A program made the position numbers and the translations under genes. A stretch of DNA of 64,000 nucleotides from Chitinophaga pinensis (lineage in GTDB: Bacteria; Bacteroidota; Bacteroidia; UBA4408). The stretch is from assembly GCA_945861665.1 (NCBI GenBank), contig CAMAVS010000002.1, positions 79,527-143,526 of the forward strand. The letters are read 5' to 3'. This document shows, one piece after another, positions 44,489 through 64,000 of the stretch; the stretch's first letter is position 1; the number at the start of each line of letters is the position of its first letter. Under the pieces are notes generated by a model. The model was not told where the DNA came from and made no database searches. It saw nothing but the letters and a program-made list of their open reading frames with translations.

Positions 44489-47400
44489 ATGGGTAAGAAA
44501 TTTACTTTTATTCTAAAATTGTGCTTTGCTCTTTTGTTTATAAACAACACAAACAAGAGCATTGCGCAATGTAATGGTACTTCCGTTGTAAACCCTTCTT
44601 TTGAAGGGCCAACGGGAGCTAACCTAACTCCGGCACCTTGGGTTATTTGCACAAATACGCCAGATACACAACCTTGTTATGGGGGAGTTTTGTCTCCCTC
44701 AAATGGCAATTCCTATATAGGAATTACAGCTTATTACCCAAATGGCAACATTTACGAATCCTTTTCCCAACAATTGAGTCAAAATTTTAGCGCAGGGCAA
44801 GCTTATACATTTAGTATTGATTTAGCAAAGTGGAATGCAAACGGTTATGCCAATGGAATTGGTGAAGTTCAAATATGGGGTGGTTTTGCTAATTGTACAA
44901 AAAGTCAACTATTATGGAGTTCGGGTAGTATTTTAAATTATACTTGGCAACCTTATCAGGTTGCTTTTACACCCAATGCAAATTATACGCACCTTTATTT
45001 TGAAATTGTGGATTTTAATTGTGGTTGCTTTGAAACCCCATACATATTTTTGGATAATATGAGCCAAATTGTTACCCTAAGTACTCAAATACAAAGCACT
45101 ACAACTTGTTTTGGTCAATGTAATGCAACAGCCAAAGCAAACGTGTATGCAGGTACCCCACCTTTTAATTATACTTGGAGTACGGGTGCTATAACGGATA
45201 GTATTGGTAATTTATGTGCCGGTACTTATTGGGTAAATGTAAGCGATGCAAACGGTTGTTTTGCTACAGATACTGTTACCATTGGTAATCCTGCCATTAA
45301 TATTGTTTCCAATTTCCAACAACCACTTTGCAATGGAGACAGCAACGGTGTTGCGAGTGTTATAGTTACTGGTGGTAGTTCACCCTATACCTATCTTTGG
45401 AGTAACGGCAGTACCAATGATACTATTCCAAATTTGAGGGCAGGTACATATACCTTAACCGTTACCGATAGTGTAGGCTGTACGGCTAGTACACAAATAG
45501 TAATTAACGAGCCTGCTATTTTACAATTAGCTATAAACGCTGTTAACATAAGTTGTTTTGGTGTAAACGATGCTATAGCAATTGCTTTGGTTAATGGTGG
45601 CACCCCTCCTTATCTTTATTTGTGGAGCAATGGAAATACCAATGATACACTTCTTAATCCTCCTCCCGGAACTTATACGCTAATAGTGTATGATTTTAAC
45701 TCCTGTTCTGTAACTGCACAGGTAACAATTATTGAACCACCTGCAATTGCAGTAAATTTAAGCATTGTGGATGTAAGTTGTTTTGGTGGTAATGATGGTT
45801 CTATAACATTAAATACTTCTGGTGGTACAGCTCCCTATAATTACGCTTGGACACCAAACGTAGGCAATACAGATATAGTAAGTAATTTAACAGCAGGCAA
45901 CTATTCCTGTACTATTACAGACGCTAATGGATGTACGTTTACACAAATTTTCTATGTAGGCGAAAATCCATTGCTTCAATTACAATCAGGGCAACAAAAT
46001 GTAAATTGTTTTAACGGCACAAGCGGAATTGCGTATGTTACTGTTTCGGGTGGAATGGCACCTTATACTTATTCTTGGAGCAATGGCTCCATAAATGATA
46101 GCATTGTAAATATTCCTGCGGGTACTTACAATGTTACTGTAACTGATGCGAATGGTTGTGCTGTTGCTACAACTATTAACATTACTGAGCCTGCTAGTGG
46201 CATCACTATAAACAATTTAATTATTAATTCTCCCTTGTGTAATGGTGCAGCAAATGGTAGCATTAGCTTTACGGTTACAGGCGGCACATCACCCTATTTG
46301 TATGTTTGGAATCCAAACGTAAGCAATACAAATACTGCAAACAATTTATCGGCAGGTAATTATTCAGTTACAATTACAGATGCGAATGGTTGTAATTTGA
46401 CTCAGCAATTCAATGTTGTTGATCCCCCTGCAATTGTCATAAATAGCTCAATTACAAATGCAAGGTGTAACGCACAATGCAATGGAACTGCTAAAATAAC
46501 TGCACAGGGAGGCACTTTACCATATAGTTATTTATGGAGTAACGGTGCTATTACAGACAGCATTTTTAATTTGTGTGCGGGAAACTATTCTTGTACCATA
46601 ACAGATGCTAATGGTTGCACAGCACAAACTACGGTTATTATAACAGAACCTGCTGCTATGCAACTTGCTGTAAACAGTAGTAACTCCCATTGTGGCAATG
46701 CAGATGGAGTGGCTTGGGTAAGCAATGTAATTGGTGGCACCGCACCCTATACTTATTTGTGGAGCAACGCAAATACAAATGATACAGCCTTTTCTTTAAT
46801 AGCCGGAAACTATACAGTAACCGTTACAGACTCAAACAACTGTACGGTACAAGGAAATGTAACCATTACAAATGCACCTGCTCCCATATTAAATTTAGTA
46901 ACACAAACGGATGAAATATGTGGCAATGCAAGTGGAACAATTACGGTAAATGCAATAGGCACAGCCCCTTTTAATTATACTTGGAATCCGAATGTGAGCA
47001 TTACGAATAGTGCGAATAATCTCGTAGCGGGAAATTATACTGTAAGTGTTACAGATGCTTTCGGTTGTGTTTCTAATGTTCTACAAGTAACTATAAACAA
47101 TCAACAAATACAAATTACAGCAAGTACTGTTGTAAAGGATGAAAAATGTACGAATGCAAAAGGTGAAGCAACAGCTACACCAACCAACGGAACATCTCCC
47201 TATACTTATAGCTGGAACACAGTTCCTTTGCAAACGAACGCAACAGCTACTCAATTATCGAGCGGCAATTATATTTGCACTATAACTGATGCGAATGGAT
47301 GTACAGGAACAGTTTCGGTTACAATAAGCAATACAGATGATATACTTTTTGTAAAAGATATAGTAATAGAACCTGAATTTCCACAAGCAGGAGAACAAAC

Positions 47401-47854
47401 AAAAGCAAGTGCTGTATTGAGCAACGACTGGGAGCCATATTATTGGAAAGTTCCGCCAACAAATGAAAATACAACGGAAAAGAATCCAACGTTTTATTCA
47501 ATAGACCAAAACAGTTTTACATTGATTTTGTATGCTATTAGTAGTAATGGTTGTATAGACAGTATAAGCAAAACCTTTGCAGTAAAACCGCCAATTACTT
47601 TTTATGTTCCTAACAGTTTTACTCCGAATGGAGATAACTTGAATGAAACTTTTGGTCCTGAACTGTTAGGTATCAAAGAACTTTCAGGCGCAATTTACAA
47701 TCGTTGGGGTGAAATAATATTTGAATACGATGCTATCAGTGACCGTTGGGATGGCGTCAAAAGCGAACAGGGTGTATATGTGTATCGCTTTAACTACAAA
47801 GATATGAACGAAAGAAGCGAAACTAAAATTGGTACGGTTACGCTTGTGAAATAA
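44489..47854 (+). CDS. SprB-like adhesin with ten repeats and type B type IX C-terminus
   Basis: 1121 residues. A leader (KFTFILKLCFALLFINNTNKS) is followed by a lectin-like N-terminal domain (residues about 30-190), ten SprB repeats of about 65-75 residues and a C-terminal gliding-associated type B sorting domain (FYVPNSFTPNGDNLNETFG, GAIYNRWGEIIFEYD, RWDGVKSEQGVYVYRF). Each repeat has the form CfG...a.v..GG.pPY.Y.WSNG..nDt...l.aGtYtvtvtDanGC. The same repeat type occurs in SprB, the cell-surface adhesin propelled in gliding. It is the last gene of the surface cluster. The 167 bases after it hold nothing I recognise. Confidence 0.9.
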   Translation: MGKKFTFILKLCFALLFINNTNKSIAQCNGTSVVNPSFEGPTGANLTPAPWVICTNTPDTQPCYGGVLSPSNGNSYIGITAYYPNGNIYESFSQQLSQNFSAGQAYTFSIDLAKWNANGYANGIGEVQIWGGFANCTKSQLLWSSGSILNYTWQPYQVAFTPNANYTHLYFEIVDFNCGCFETPYIFLDNMSQIVTLSTQIQSTTTCFGQCNATAKANVYAGTPPFNYTWSTGAITDSIGNLCAGTYWVNVSDANGCFATDTVTIGNPAINIVSNFQQPLCNGDSNGVASVIVTGGSSPYTYLWSNGSTNDTIPNLRAGTYTLTVTDSVGCTASTQIVINEPAILQLAINAVNISCFGVNDAIAIALVNGGTPPYLYLWSNGNTNDTLLNPPPGTYTLIVYDFNSCSVTAQVTIIEPPAIAVNLSIVDVSCFGGNDGSITLNTSGGTAPYNYAWTPNVGNTDIVSNLTAGNYSCTITDANGCTFTQIFYVGENPLLQLQSGQQNVNCFNGTSGIAYVTVSGGMAPYTYSWSNGSINDSIVNIPAGTYNVTVTDANGCAVATTINITEPASGITINNLIINSPLCNGAANGSISFTVTGGTSPYLYVWNPNVSNTNTANNLSAGNYSVTITDANGCNLTQQFNVVDPPAIVINSSITNARCNAQCNGTAKITAQGGTLPYSYLWSNGAITDSIFNLCAGNYSCTITDANGCTAQTTVIITEPAAMQLAVNSSNSHCGNADGVAWVSNVIGGTAPYTYLWSNANTNDTAFSLIAGNYTVTVTDSNNCTVQGNVTITNAPAPILNLVTQTDEICGNASGTITVNAIGTAPFNYTWNPNVSITNSANNLVAGNYTVSVTDAFGCVSNVLQVTINNQQIQITASTVVKDEKCTNAKGEATATPTNGTSPYTYSWNTVPLQTNATATQLSSGNYICTITDANGCTGTVSVTISNTDDILFVKDIVIEPEFPQAGEQTKASAVLSNDWEPYYWKVPPTNENTTEKNPTFYSIDQNSFTLILYAISSNGCIDSISKTFAVKPPITFYVPNSFTPNGDNLNETFGPELLGIKELSGAIYNRWGEIIFEYDAISDRWDGVKSEQGVYVYRFNYKDMNERSETKIGTVTLVK

Positions 47855-48021: not shown

Positions 48022-48903
48022 TTATTTTTTTATGATATAAATTTGGCTCGACCAGGTGTTTCCTGTTTTTGAAGCAGCCATATTGGATGAAAGTCCGGAT
48101 AAAAATCCGCGAAGCAAATTGGTGCTTCCTGTTTTGTATTTTTCACTTAAAAGCGAAACATAAAACGAGTCGAATTTCATTGGCAAAATTTTCTCCACCT
48201 TCATTCCTTGTGAAGAAAATAAAGCCTTAATATCCTTTGGGGTAAAATGCCAAAGGTGTCGAGGCACATCGTAAGCACCCCAAAACGCCTTGTAATCTAT
48301 GGCATCTTTTGAAGAACAATTTGGAACCGCTATAATGATTGAGCCGCTTGGTTTTAATAATTTTTTTAGCTCCCCCACTCGCTCATTCAAATTAGGCACG
48401 TGTTCTAAAACGTGCCACATACTTATTATGTCAAAACCTGCTTCGGGCAGTGTTTTTAATGCCTCTTCTTGTAACACATTTATCCCGTAATTTTTTATGC
48501 CGAGCGCTCTTGCATCAGGGTCGGGTTCCACTCCTGTTGTTTCCCAACCATCCATTTTACAGGTATTTAAAAACTCTCCCGTTCCACAACCAATGTCCAA
48601 TAATTTCCCCTTTTGGTTGAGCGAATTTATAAGATTCAATTTTTTTCCAAGGGTATATTTCCTCACCGTTTGATACAAATAATTCACTATTCCCTTTTTG
48701 GTATTTGAATGTGAAATATAGTCTTCCGACTTATAATACTTCGCCAAATCGGCATCGGCCGGTCGTGGATTTGTAAACTTAAAACCACAGCTTTTACATG
48801 AAACAATTGAAAATGTTTCACGTGAAACAGTATAGTCAACGCAATTTAAAAAAGGCAAAAATTCGCTATTATTACAAACGGGACAAGTATCAATCTGCTT
48901 CAT
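48022..48903 (-). CDS. Class I SAM-dependent methyltransferase with zinc-ribbon start
   Basis: 293 residues. An N-terminal CPVC...CKSCGFKFTNPRP segment is a likely zinc ribbon, and a Rossmann methyltransferase follows with motif I LLDIGCGTGEFL near residue 96, ISMWHVLEHVPN (motif IV) near residue 160 and IIIAVPNCSS. The layout matches sugar C-methyltransferase-like or surface-polymer enzymes, which would fit the rmlA upstream. The first quarter of the gene contains a parS-like palindrome at 48814-48829. Substrate unknown. Confidence 0.87.
   Translation of the reverse strand: MKQIDTCPVCNNSEFLPFLNCVDYTVSRETFSIVSCKSCGFKFTNPRPADADLAKYYKSEDYISHSNTKKGIVNYLYQTVRKYTLGKKLNLINSLNQKGKLLDIGCGTGEFLNTCKMDGWETTGVEPDPDARALGIKNYGINVLQEEALKTLPEAGFDIISMWHVLEHVPNLNERVGELKKLLKPSGSIIIAVPNCSSKDAIDYKAFWGAYDVPRHLWHFTPKDIKALFSSQGMKVEKILPMKFDSFYVSLLSEKYKTGSTNLLRGFLSGLSSNMAASKTGNTWSSQIYIIKK
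48814..48829. promoter_or_regulatory. parS-like centromere site within the methyltransferase gene
   Basis: TGTTTCACGTGAAACA is a perfect 16-base palindrome identical to the widely conserved chromosomal parS consensus bound by ParB. It falls in the coding part encoding VSRETF. A second site lies 143 bases away. Confidence 0.85.
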
Positions 48904-48956
48904 TTGAAAATATAATCTTATTGATTTTCGTTAAATTTTTATGTGTAAAAACAAAA

Positions 48957-48972
48957 TGTTCCACGTGAAACA
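48957..48972. promoter_or_regulatory. parS-like centromere site between rmlA and the methyltransferase gene
   Basis: TGTTCCACGTGAAACA, the same site with a single substitution that is tolerated in known parS sites. It is intergenic, 10 bases past the rmlA stop. Confidence 0.85.
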
Positions 48973-48981
48973 TTCGCTAAT

Positions 48982-49842
48982 TTATTCCGCCAACCGCATC
49001 AAATAATTGCCATATCCGCTCTTCATAAGAGGTTCGGCAATTGCCTTTAATTGCAACTTATTTATATAACCCATTCTAAAAGCAACCTCTTCTATACAGC
49101 CAATTTTCAACCCTTGCCTTTCTTCTATCACCTGAACAAATTGTCCGGCTTGCATCAAGGAGCTAAAAGTTCCGGTATCTAACCAAGCTGTTCCCCTATC
49201 CAATATTCCCACCTTTAATTTTCCTTGTGACAAATACTCCTTGTTTATATCTGTAATTTCATACTCTCCCCTTGCACTGGGCTTTAATGATTTTGCTATT
49301 TCAACTACTGAATTATCATAAAAATACAATCCAGGAACAGCATAGTTCGACTTTGGTTTCTGAGGCTTTTCTTCTATTGAAACAGCATTGAGATTATCAT
49401 CAAATTCTACAACGCCATACCTCTCCGGATCAGAAACGTGATAAGCAAAAACCACCCCGCCTTCTGGGTTTTCATTTTCTTTTAATAGTCTTCCTAAACC
49501 TTGTCCGTAAAATATATTGTCACCTAAAATCAGGGCGCATTTTTCCTTTCCTATAAACTTCTCCCCAATAACAAAAGCTTGCGCAAGACCATTCGGAACT
49601 TCTTGAACGGCATACGAAAACTCACAACCTAATTGCTTTCCGTCTCCCAGCAATCTTTCAAAATGAGGCAAATCGTGCGGAGTAGATATGATTAATATTT
49701 CCCGTATTCCGCTCATCATTAAAACGGAGAGAGGGTAATAAATCATTGGTTTGTCAAATATGGGCATAAGCTGTTTGCTAACAGCCAATGTTAATGGGTG
49801 TAAGCGGGTTCCTGAACCTCCTGCTAAAATTATTCCTTTCAT
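48982..49842 (-). CDS. rmlA: Glucose-1-phosphate thymidylyltransferase
   Basis: 286 residues; makes dTDP-glucose, the first step to dTDP-rhamnose and related sugars. Nucleotide-binding [11 protein letters not shown] at residues 8-18, [25 protein letters not shown], and [14 protein letters not shown] identify the family. The ATG overlaps the RND gene stop by four bases (ATGA), so translation is probably coupled. The methyltransferase downstream may act in the same surface-polysaccharide route. The other rml genes are not in the window. Confidence 0.95.
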
Positions 49843-60921: not shown

Positions 60922-62300
60922 TATTTTATGCCCCTTTGCTCTCTCCACTGCTGATTAAATGATTTAGTAACAACTTCTGGCATTTCCCTTCTTTCGCCCC
61001 ACTGCTTTCTAAAAAACTGACGCATCATAAAGTTTTTCACTTTTGCGCCACCTTTGTCCATTTTGCTCCGCTTTAGCATCGCTGTTTTCCAAAAAAAGCG
61101 ATATAAATTTTCTGTTTTTGTTGAATGCCCTTTTGCAACAAAATCTCTACGGTTATACAATAACAACTTATGTATATCTATCCCCACCGGACAGCTCGCC
61201 GTACATTTTCCGCACATAGTTGAAGCGCTGCTTAAGTGGTAATAATTTTCTTCTGGTTTTAAGTGGGGCATAATCACAGAGCCTATCGGTCCACCATAAA
61301 CAGCGCCATAAGTATGGCCGCCAACATTTTTATATACAGGACAAACATTTGAACACGCTCCACACTTTATGCAGGCAAGCGCCCTTCTTTGTTCGGCAAG
61401 CGCTAACAAGCCTGTTCTGTTGTTGTCCAATAAAATTAAATACATTTCGTCGGGGCCGTCGTCTTCGTCATTTTGTTTTGGCCCACTTATAATGCTGTTG
61501 TAAGTAGTTATTTGCTGGCCGGTTCCGAAAGAGGCTAACAGGGTAATAAACACGTCTAGGTCATAAATAGACGGTATTAATTTTTCAATTCCGCAAATAC
61601 TTATGTGGACCTTTGGGAAGGCCATCCCGTTTATCGCATTTCCTTCATTTTCAGTAAGAACCACAGAGCCCGTATCGGCAATTAGGTAATTTGCTCCGGT
61701 TACCCCTATTTGTGCTGTTATAAATTTGTCTCTCAATTCATTTCTTACAAATTCCGCCAATTCGTTTGGGCTCACATTGCTGTCTGTTTGTTTTTTAGCA
61801 TTAGGCAGCTCTGCGATGCTTTCTTTCGACTTGTGCATTGCCGGTGTAACAATATGGTAAGGGGGTTCGCCAGAAAGTTGTTGAATATATTCCCCAAGGT
61901 CTGTTTCAATAACCTCAACCGAGTCTGCCACTAGCTCTTTGTTTAAATTTATTTCCTCAGTAACCATACTTTTGCTTTTAACAATATGATTACAAGAAGA
62001 CGATTTGGCTATCTTTTTTATTTCAGCAATCGCGTCTTCTGCGTTTTGGGCCCATATAATTTTTCCTCCCTTTTTAATAAAATTACTTTCAAATTCAATA
62101 AGGAATTTATCTAGGTTTTCGATGACCTTGTTTTTTGTAGCAGAAGCCCTTTGTTTGGCGAGATTAATATTAACGAACTGCGACTTACCTTGTTGTGCCG
62201 CACCTATATATTTACTTATATTATAATTAATTATTTTTCTGTGTTCTTTGTCAAAAGCAATCGACTCAGAACTTAATATAACCTGTTGCCGCTTTTCCAT
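60921..62300 (-). CDS. lutB: LutB-like iron-sulfur lactate utilisation protein
   Basis: 459 residues. An LUD domain (residues about 60-290) precedes a ferredoxin domain with two clusters (CIKCGACSNVCPVYKN near 305 and CGKCTASCPVGIDI near 360). The family is the B subunit of L-lactate oxidation. No lutA or lutC is adjacent. It follows rpiB after 8 bases, likely in one operon. Confidence 0.93.
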   Translation of the reverse strand: MEKRQQVILSSESIAFDKEHRKIINYNISKYIGAAQQGKSQFVNINLAKQRASATKNKVIENLDKFLIEFESNFIKKGGKIIWAQNAEDAIAEIKKIAKSSSCNHIVKSKSMVTEEINLNKELVADSVEVIETDLGEYIQQLSGEPPYHIVTPAMHKSKESIAELPNAKKQTDSNVSPNELAEFVRNELRDKFITAQIGVTGANYLIADTGSVVLTENEGNAINGMAFPKVHISICGIEKLIPSIYDLDVFITLLASFGTGQQITTYNSIISGPKQNDEDDGPDEMYLILLDNNRTGLLALAEQRRALACIKCGACSNVCPVYKNVGGHTYGAVYGGPIGSVIMPHLKPEENYYHLSSASTMCGKCTASCPVGIDIHKLLLYNRRDFVAKGHSTKTENLYRFFWKTAMLKRSKMDKGGAKVKNFMMRQFFRKQWGERREMPEVVTKSFNQQWREQRGIK

Positions 62301-62308
62301 TAATATTA

Positions 62309-62749
62309 TTAATTTTTTATTTTATCTACCCTGCTGCTGTGTCTTCCTCCCTCAAAATTAGTTTTTAAAAAAATGTCCACCATTTCAATTGCCATGGCGG
62401 TATCTATAAAGCGGGCTGGCAACGCAATCACATTTGCGTCGTTGTGAAGCCGCGCTAATTCTGTAACCGTCTTATTCCAGCATAATGCCGACCTTATTTC
62501 TTGGTGTTTATTAGCAGCCATATTAATTCCATTTCCGCTCCCACATATTAAAATGCCTATTTCGCTTTCTTTGCTTGTAATAGATTTTGCTACGGCGTGG
62601 GCTGCGTCCGGGTAATCTGCTCGATCTTCGTTATAGCATCCATAATCTTTAACCTTATTGTCGCCTTTTTCAATATATTTCCTTATGTCTTCTTTTAATT
62701 TAAACCCTGCGTGGTCACTACCAATAGCTATTCTTAGTGTTTTGTTCAT
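62309..62749 (-). CDS. rpiB: Ribose-5-phosphate isomerase B
   Basis: 146 residues with IAIGSDHAGFKLKEDIR near the start, the active Cys/Ser region ICGSGNGINMAANK and a His from DAAHAVAKS-type neighbourhood. It interconverts ribose-5-P and ribulose-5-P. It leads the rpiB-lutB pair. Confidence 0.94.
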   Translation of the reverse strand: MNKTLRIAIGSDHAGFKLKEDIRKYIEKGDNKVKDYGCYNEDRADYPDAAHAVAKSITSKESEIGILICGSGNGINMAANKHQEIRSALCWNKTVTELARLHNDANVIALPARFIDTAMAIEMVDIFLKTNFEGGRHSSRVDKIKN

Positions 62750-63315
62750 ATTAATTATATTTTAATACGGCAAAATTAATCTAAAGCTATATATTTATAT
62801 TTATAAGCCAATTATGTTATTAACAAACACGCTAATTTATATGTTAATTTAATTTTAAAAACTGTAATAATTAAATTAAGTGTTTATAAGGCCGCCACTA
62901 CTATATAATTAGTAATTAACAATCAAATAATATATATTTATATTTATATTATAAAACACACAAGAAATTAACTTTTATAATTATCTTTTTATGTTCTTTT
63001 AAATATTAATAATTATAATTAACACATTACTTATAATTATATTAATATATTAATAATCAAATACTTGATATTTATTATTATTAATTAACAATAACAATAA
63101 ATAAATAAATAAATAAACTTTTTAACAATATTAACAGTCTATATATAATATAAATAATATTTAATAAACTATATATTATAATAAATACTAAATAGGTTGT
63201 TGATTTTTTATATATATTTTTATAAATTATTATTTAGATTTATTTATATAAACATATAAAGTGTTGATAAAAAAAGAAGAAAAGGTGATTTTAAAATAGT
63301 ATATATTGATAAAAT
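62750..63315. other. Extremely AT-rich intergenic spacer (566 bases)
   Basis: Almost pure A/T between divergent genes, with a short (AATA) microsatellite around 63095-63116. No convincing ORF, tRNA or hairpin terminator is visible. Two weak DnaA-box-like words (TTATCAACA near 63262 on the minus strand, and an AATCAACA nearby) are the only hints of a replication-related use. I see nothing else supported. Confidence 0.5.
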
Positions 63316-64000
63316 ATGGATTATAAAAAATTAAATTTAATTTTATTAATTTGTGTTGCATTAATAATAAAAGAAGGATTTACCCAAGAGGTAAATTCAA
63401 ATGGATTTAATACATTTTATTATATAAACGGAAAAGTTTCCAGCGCAGGAATAATGCTTAATGGAAAACCTAATGGATATTGGAAAACTTATTATGAAAA
63501 TGGAAATATAAAATCAGAGGGAAACAGAAAAAATTTATTACTTGATAGTATATGGAAGTTTTACAACGAAAAAGGTGTTTTAAGTCAAGAATATAATTAT
63601 AAAACAGGAAAAAAGAACGGTTTAAAAAAAACCTTTGATACCGAAACAAATAAAATATTATTCGAAGAAAACTATGCCTTAGATTTAAAACAAGGAAATG
63701 TAAATTATTATAAAAACAATATTAAAACAAAATACATACCTTTTATAAATGGGAAAGAAGAGGGGGTGGGAAAAGAATATGGAAAGGATGGGGAAATTAT
63801 AACAATAACAAAATATAAAAATGGATATATAGTAACAGAAGAAAAAATTAATAGAGTAGATAAGTTTGGCAAAAAACAAGGTTTTTGGAGGATATTTTAT
63901 GACAATGGAAATGTAAAAAGAGAAGAAAAATACAAAGACGATAAATTAGATGGATATGTAAAGGATTTTACCTATGATGGCAATTTAATAAAGGTAGAAA
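63316..64000 (+). CDS. Secreted YwqK/MORN-repeat protein, cut by the window end
   Basis: Open from the ATG at 63316 to the last base without a stop, at least 228 codons. A signal peptide (NLILLICVALIIKEGFTQ) is followed by repeats such as NGKPNGYWKTYYENGNIKSEG, KKNGLKKTFD and KKQGFWRIFYDNGNVKREE, matching the YwqK/MORN family found at 22137 and 59511. Base composition is poorer in G+C than most of the window, and C is rare. The real length and function are unknown. Confidence 0.85.
   Translation, partial: MDYKKLNLILLICVALIIKEGFTQEVNSNGFNTFYYINGKVSSAGIMLNGKPNGYWKTYYENGNIKSEGNRKNLLLDSIWKFYNEKGVLSQEYNYKTGKKNGLKKTFDTETNKILFEENYALDLKQGNVNYYKNNIKTKYIPFINGKEEGVGKEYGKDGEIITITKYKNGYIVTEEKINRVDKFGKKQGFWRIFYDNGNVKREEKYKDDKLDGYVKDFTYDGNLIKVE

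Follow-up and report, generated by a model that had tools for sequence, protein, structure and literature searches.

A probable pair of parS sites at a methyltransferase gene in Bacteroidota, one of them lying within its codons

The ParABS mechanism is well established in other bacteria, in which parS is the bacterial centromere sequence. The chromosomal parS consensus, reportedly from Livny et al. in 2007, is TGTTTCACGTGAAACA. That such sites can lie inside genes has precedent: in Pseudomonas aeruginosa, nine of ten parS sites were predicted within coding sequences, according to the available part of one report (PMC4368675). In gut bacteria, dnaA is not always found at the origin that parS and skew identify (PMC10197239, available part), and in the Flavobacteriaceae the origin has been predicted at or beside mnmG, as far as the accessible text of two papers goes (PMC12843772 and PMC11278836; in the latter, a figure legend labels mnmG as ter, contradicting the paper's own text).

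Here we describe a pair of palindromes from Chitinophaga pinensis, found in a stretch of 64,000 nucleotides (hereafter, the window) that corresponds to positions 79,527-143,526 of contig C2 in a draft assembly of 2,494,644 bases, 13 contigs and 99.79% completeness. We interpret them, with high confidence, as two origin-proximal parS sites that would serve as loading points for the genome's own ParB, one of them formed by methyltransferase codons. Such a locus offers a clear natural example of DNA that serves chromosome segregation and encodes protein at once; comparison with homologues that lack the site makes it possible to measure what the DNA function does to codons and residues.

The site pair and its genomic setting

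Site 1 (48814..48829, no strand assigned) is identical to the consensus and lies within a gene for a class I methyltransferase of 293 aa (48022..48903, minus strand; Pfam PF13489, E 9.7e-27). Codons 26-30 of this gene, GTT TCA CGT GAA ACA (48814..48828, minus strand), read V-S-R-E-T and supply 15 of the site's 16 bases. Site 2 (48957..48972, likewise without strand), TGTTCCACGTGAAACA, departs from the consensus by 1 mismatch and is intergenic, 54 to 69 bases upstream of the methyltransferase start and toward the 3' end of rmlA, the upstream neighbour encoding glucose-1-phosphate thymidylyltransferase (48982..49842, minus strand; TIGR01207). The starts of the two sites are 143 bases apart. Both are 16-bp palindromes within the one or two mismatches accepted for parS, and a sequence-only reading of the window, which had called them parS-like and placed the first in the methyltransferase frame and the second in the gap before it, was correct on each point.

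Elsewhere in the window, the protein encoded at 44489-47854 is 1121 aa long, contains ten stretches of SprB repeats and carries a type IX secretion domain (CHU_C) at its C-terminus. Toward the window's end (62001-64000), the G+C content falls to 25.6%, with no open reading frame of at least 100 aa past 62749.

At up to 3 mismatches the window contains four matches to the consensus, compared with 0.44 on average over 100 shuffles that preserved dinucleotide frequencies, none of which reached four. When the whole draft was searched, matches with at most 1 mismatch were found at two places only, both at this locus, in keeping with the few, clustered copies typical of parS and with what the sequence-only reading had anticipated from a genome-wide search; a third place, on contig C5, has 2 mismatches. 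Base composition alone predicts 0.047 sites with at most 1 mismatch per genome, and ~2e-7 pairs within 200 bp. A chance origin of the pair, already judged very improbable from the sequence, is rejected by the shuffles, the whole-genome search and the composition.

The sole ParB-family match of the genome lies on contig C9 (E 1.7e-51) and is directly preceded by a parA gene with the motif KGGVGKTT, the two forming a parA-parB operon. The ParB gene called for by a parS reading is present in the same genome together with ParA, though on a contig other than that of the sites; dnaA, on C1, is also apart from them. Aligned to ParB and Noc proteins of known structure, this ParB shows R and G at the positions that correspond to Caulobacter R173 and G201; Noc carries Q and R there. 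According to the available part of PMC7383237, R173/G201 are the parS-type and Q173/R201 the Noc-type specificity residues; by alignment, the ParB of this genome carries the parS-type residues. A Noc-binding site (NBS) is rejected, since the one ParB-family protein matched in this genome carries R and G in place of Q173 and R201.

The position of the pair relative to the origin was judged from nucleotide skew, which in this genome was analysed for contig C2 alone, of the 13 contigs. The minimum of the raw cumulative GC skew of C2 falls at 132,909, ~4.5 kb from the parS sites. A change-point fit using third codon positions and gene direction places the switch at ~158 kb, 30 kb from the sites, and prefers this to the parS position; none of 300 gene-order permutations, evaluated on a coarser grid, fitted as well. 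Two single-contig genomes of relatives agree. In G157, the sampled skew minimum is the very sample that holds parS, at 2.63 Mb, with dnaA at position 609, ~0.66 Mb from parS; in G177, the minimum lies near 2.54 Mb and parS at 2.567 Mb, with dnaA at 1.82 Mb, ~0.75 Mb from parS. The GC skew of G297 and G060 is weak, and contig C2 has two strict DnaA boxes, with no cluster. The skew switch ~4.5 to 30 kb away on C2 supports the reading, first put forward from the sequence together with the skew check itself, that these are origin-proximal chromosomal parS sites. The link between methyltransferase and parS could serve as a simple marker of the origin region in Bacteroidota drafts, for which dnaA appears unreliable.

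By analogy with ParABS elsewhere, a ParB dimer would bind each of the two palindromes, take up CTP, close into a clamp and slide onto the neighbouring DNA, and ParA would then move ParB such that the sister origins separate. It is improbable, in our estimate, that ParB binding at these sites has the silencing or tuning of neighbouring genes as its main role while segregation proceeds via sites outside the consensus. Reported effects of ParB on the promoters beside parS3 and parS4 of P. aeruginosa (PMC5521831, available part) lend this idea some plausibility, as does the further 2-mismatch site on C5; it is opposed by the lack of any other site with at most 1 mismatch in the genome and by the position of the pair near the skew switch.

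parS at the methyltransferase in relatives

The loading sites proposed for this genome have counterparts among its relatives, and the sequence-only reading missed this recurrence of the in-gene place with its fixed codons. Within the family, TGTTYCACRTGRAACA is present in seven of eight genomes, this one included, the eighth genome being 71% complete. Five of the seven have the site within 2.5 kb of the methyltransferase; it is 2.6 kb away in G005, and on another contig in G006. In the class as a whole, TGTTYCACRTGRAACA occurs in 208 of 296 genomes and the core GTTYCACGTGRAAC in 265 of 296, the reversed core being found in 10 of 296 by our own reading of the table. Among the matches listed, 35 genomes have core sites, and for 32 of them the methyltransferase is listed as well. 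A site is no more than 2.5 kb from that gene in 31 of the 32 genomes, the exception (G032) having its sites away from it; for the same 32 genomes, 69 of the 71 listed core sites fall within this distance, 21 of them inside the gene.

A set of loci was compiled from 30 loci of the best methyltransferase matches (179 genomes matched) and from 80 named loci that ranked highest among 575. Removal of near-copies reduced the 110 loci to 106, part of which have only ~1.5 kb of flank. A core site is found in the stretch examined at 92 of the 106 non-redundant loci, with 264 sites in 1.02 Mb versus none for the reversed control; the count allows the central variants CATG and ATGTG, and the reversed control is that of the strict core. 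The 14 loci with no core site in the stretch examined include some whose records are titled Arcicella, Microscilla, Fibrisoma, Dyadobacter, Rudanella, Filimonas, Cellulophaga and two Chitinophagaceae.

Sites are located upstream of the methyltransferase start and no more than 300 bp from it at 71 of the 106 loci, further upstream at 55, inside the gene at 31 and downstream at 12. The first of these figures would also suit palindromes acting as operators of a transcription factor with a CACGTG core that regulates the methyltransferase or mnmG and has no part in segregation. We regard such an arrangement as very unlikely: the sequence corresponds to the complete parS consensus, nearly every genome of the class has a ParB (a match in 290 of 296), and the core sites number mostly one to four per genome and lie near skew minima. 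A core site is lacking in 31 of the 296 class genomes, though nearly all have ParB; by our own count, and in numbers too small to use, it is absent from three of the six genomes without a ParB match and from 28 of the 290 with one. Seven of the eight genomes of family f41 (G047, G083, G112, G140, G163, G186, G207 and G228) have no core site, and all eight have a high-scoring ParB. The ParB of this family may use a variant site.

The usual gene upstream of the methyltransferase in relatives is what we take to be mnmG, preceded by a presumed ybeY, both named from sequence rather than by family scan. Of the 105 loci that extend far enough upstream (one of the 106 was dropped), 93 have mnmG as the gene immediately before the methyltransferase. 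Our genome differs: rmlA takes this position, mnmG lies ~61 kb away at C2:189,232-191,091, and ybeY has a match at C2:92,032; both parS sites stay with the methyltransferase despite the distance to mnmG. A site in the gene or within 300 bp is found at 76 of 93 loci with mnmG versus 4 of 12 without (Fisher p 0.001), an apparent association for which tree-corrected pairs, four in number, give p 1. VSRET is read in none of the eight copies that have neither mnmG nor a nearby site. As the best account of the placement, we envision a history in which the common order ybeY - mnmG - methyltransferase lies by the origin with parS in its gaps, and sites arose or shifted along this order, at times within coding DNA.

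Separately, parS was seen to write the C-terminus of YbeY-like proteins: MFHVEQ in L099, ~3.0 kb upstream of the methyltransferase, and LVPRGTIKD in G039 (L246:310-729). In G039, an array of tandem parS cores in units of ~99 bp starts at the 3' end of the ybeY-like gene and runs to the contig end (L246:706-1317, contig G039:C24), with seven cores in the stretch and twelve in the genome. The ParB search of this assembly returned no match.

Codons and peptides at the in-gene site

Within the methyltransferase gene, the core takes four positions: codons 26-30, at 25 loci; codons 34-38, at three loci, reading VSCET followed by C, with C36 within the site; codons 47-51, at three loci, reading VPRET; and codons 265-270, at eight loci, reading RSTWNG or a near form. 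For the first position, genes were picked by the peptide VSRET, not by their codons, and all 24 non-redundant genes so picked use GTT TCA CGT GAA. The codon for T varies in its last base, which is outside the 14-bp core (ACA in 18, ACG in four and ACC in two), and where V, S, R and E are conserved elsewhere in the VSRET genes, each is written with two to six codons. In ten pairs, each joined by its own branches of the tree, all 40 motif codons are identical (log10 P about -14), as against differences elsewhere in these pairs of 54% for V, 60% for S, 69% for R and 30% for E. Codons 26-29 are the most conserved among 289 four-codon stretches. R28 is found in all 24 genes that have the site and in one of the 82 that lack it; the codon 26-29 form is absent at 82 of the 106 loci.

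The residues themselves give some ground for thinking that VSRETF is a peptide needed by the enzyme, the in-gene site being its by-product and only the intergenic site a parS. VS-x-ET is inherently near-palindromic in frame, and V, S and E are frequently retained by homologues that lack the site. The sequences of these homologues here nonetheless read VSKEIF, VSKETF, LTGESF and many other forms, and a need for the peptide would explain neither the single set of four codons in every VSRET gene, nor its agreement over separate pairs, nor the lack of R28 in 81 of 82 genes without the site, nor the same core at three more in-gene positions with other peptides. We give this explanation very little weight. 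The codons are fixed and the peptides of site-less homologues are varied, which implies that selection acts on the DNA and not on the peptide; the DNA site appears to set the VSRET peptide, as judged from the sequences compared. Coding coincidence is rejected by the codon tests.

The methyltransferase has four N-terminal cysteines (C7, C10, C36 and C39) that are invariant in a 35-row alignment and likely form a zinc ribbon. In an AlphaFold2 model built from this alignment (mean pLDDT 87.5), residues 23-29 fall between strands 15-22 and 30-36; the predicted structure places the VSRET stretch in a loop of the N-terminal domain, between two strands, where variation would plausibly be tolerated. 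One homologue, P0106, known from its protein sequence only, has a nine-residue insertion, PARLLEAGG, between VS and RETF, inside the parS-coding stretch.

On a gene tree from a short search with the motif columns removed, the in-gene trait needs eight parsimony changes, at least two of which are forced by starred branches. A single clade for the 24 in-gene loci is rejected (AU p 0.0041), and several gains, or one gain followed by losses, both fit. It is likely, in our view, that the methyltransferase is the ancestral centromere gene of Bacteroidota, in which parS repeatedly settled in frame at four places and dictated VSRET, VSCETC (whose two cysteines are predicted zinc ligands), VPRETD and RSTWNG. 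If true, a protein stretch of the methyltransferase would be written by chromosome segregation.

Comparison with known systems

In the open-licence literature searched, and in the parts of it available, we found no paper tying Bacteroidota parS to a methyltransferase or measuring a codon lock. The accessible text of the Flavobacteriaceae origin papers (PMC12843772, PMC11278836) has no mention of parS; their predicted origin at or next to mnmG resembles the present case in that mnmG is the usual upstream neighbour of the methyltransferase, even though the mnmG of this genome is 61 kb off. As in gut bacteria, Bacteroides included, parS clusters and GC skew together mark the origin, and dnaA is not always there; the available part of that study (PMC10197239) names neither a host gene nor a coding overlap. 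The intragenic sites of P. aeruginosa share with site 1 a location within coding sequence, but the hosting by one gene at several in-frame places across lineages, and the codon fixation, were not found in what is available of PMC4368675. Intragenic parS is already known elsewhere, and it is the one-gene pattern that was not met with in the open-licence literature.

Compared with chromosomal parS and ParABS in general, the pair shows the same 16-bp palindrome, few clustered copies, a position near the skew switch and a ParB with parS-type residues. It differs in that parA-parB is not beside the sites, and in that a methyltransferase gene accompanies the sites, one of them lying inside it with fixed codons. 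As parS sites, those described here are of an ordinary and familiar kind; it is their location that is unusual and informative.
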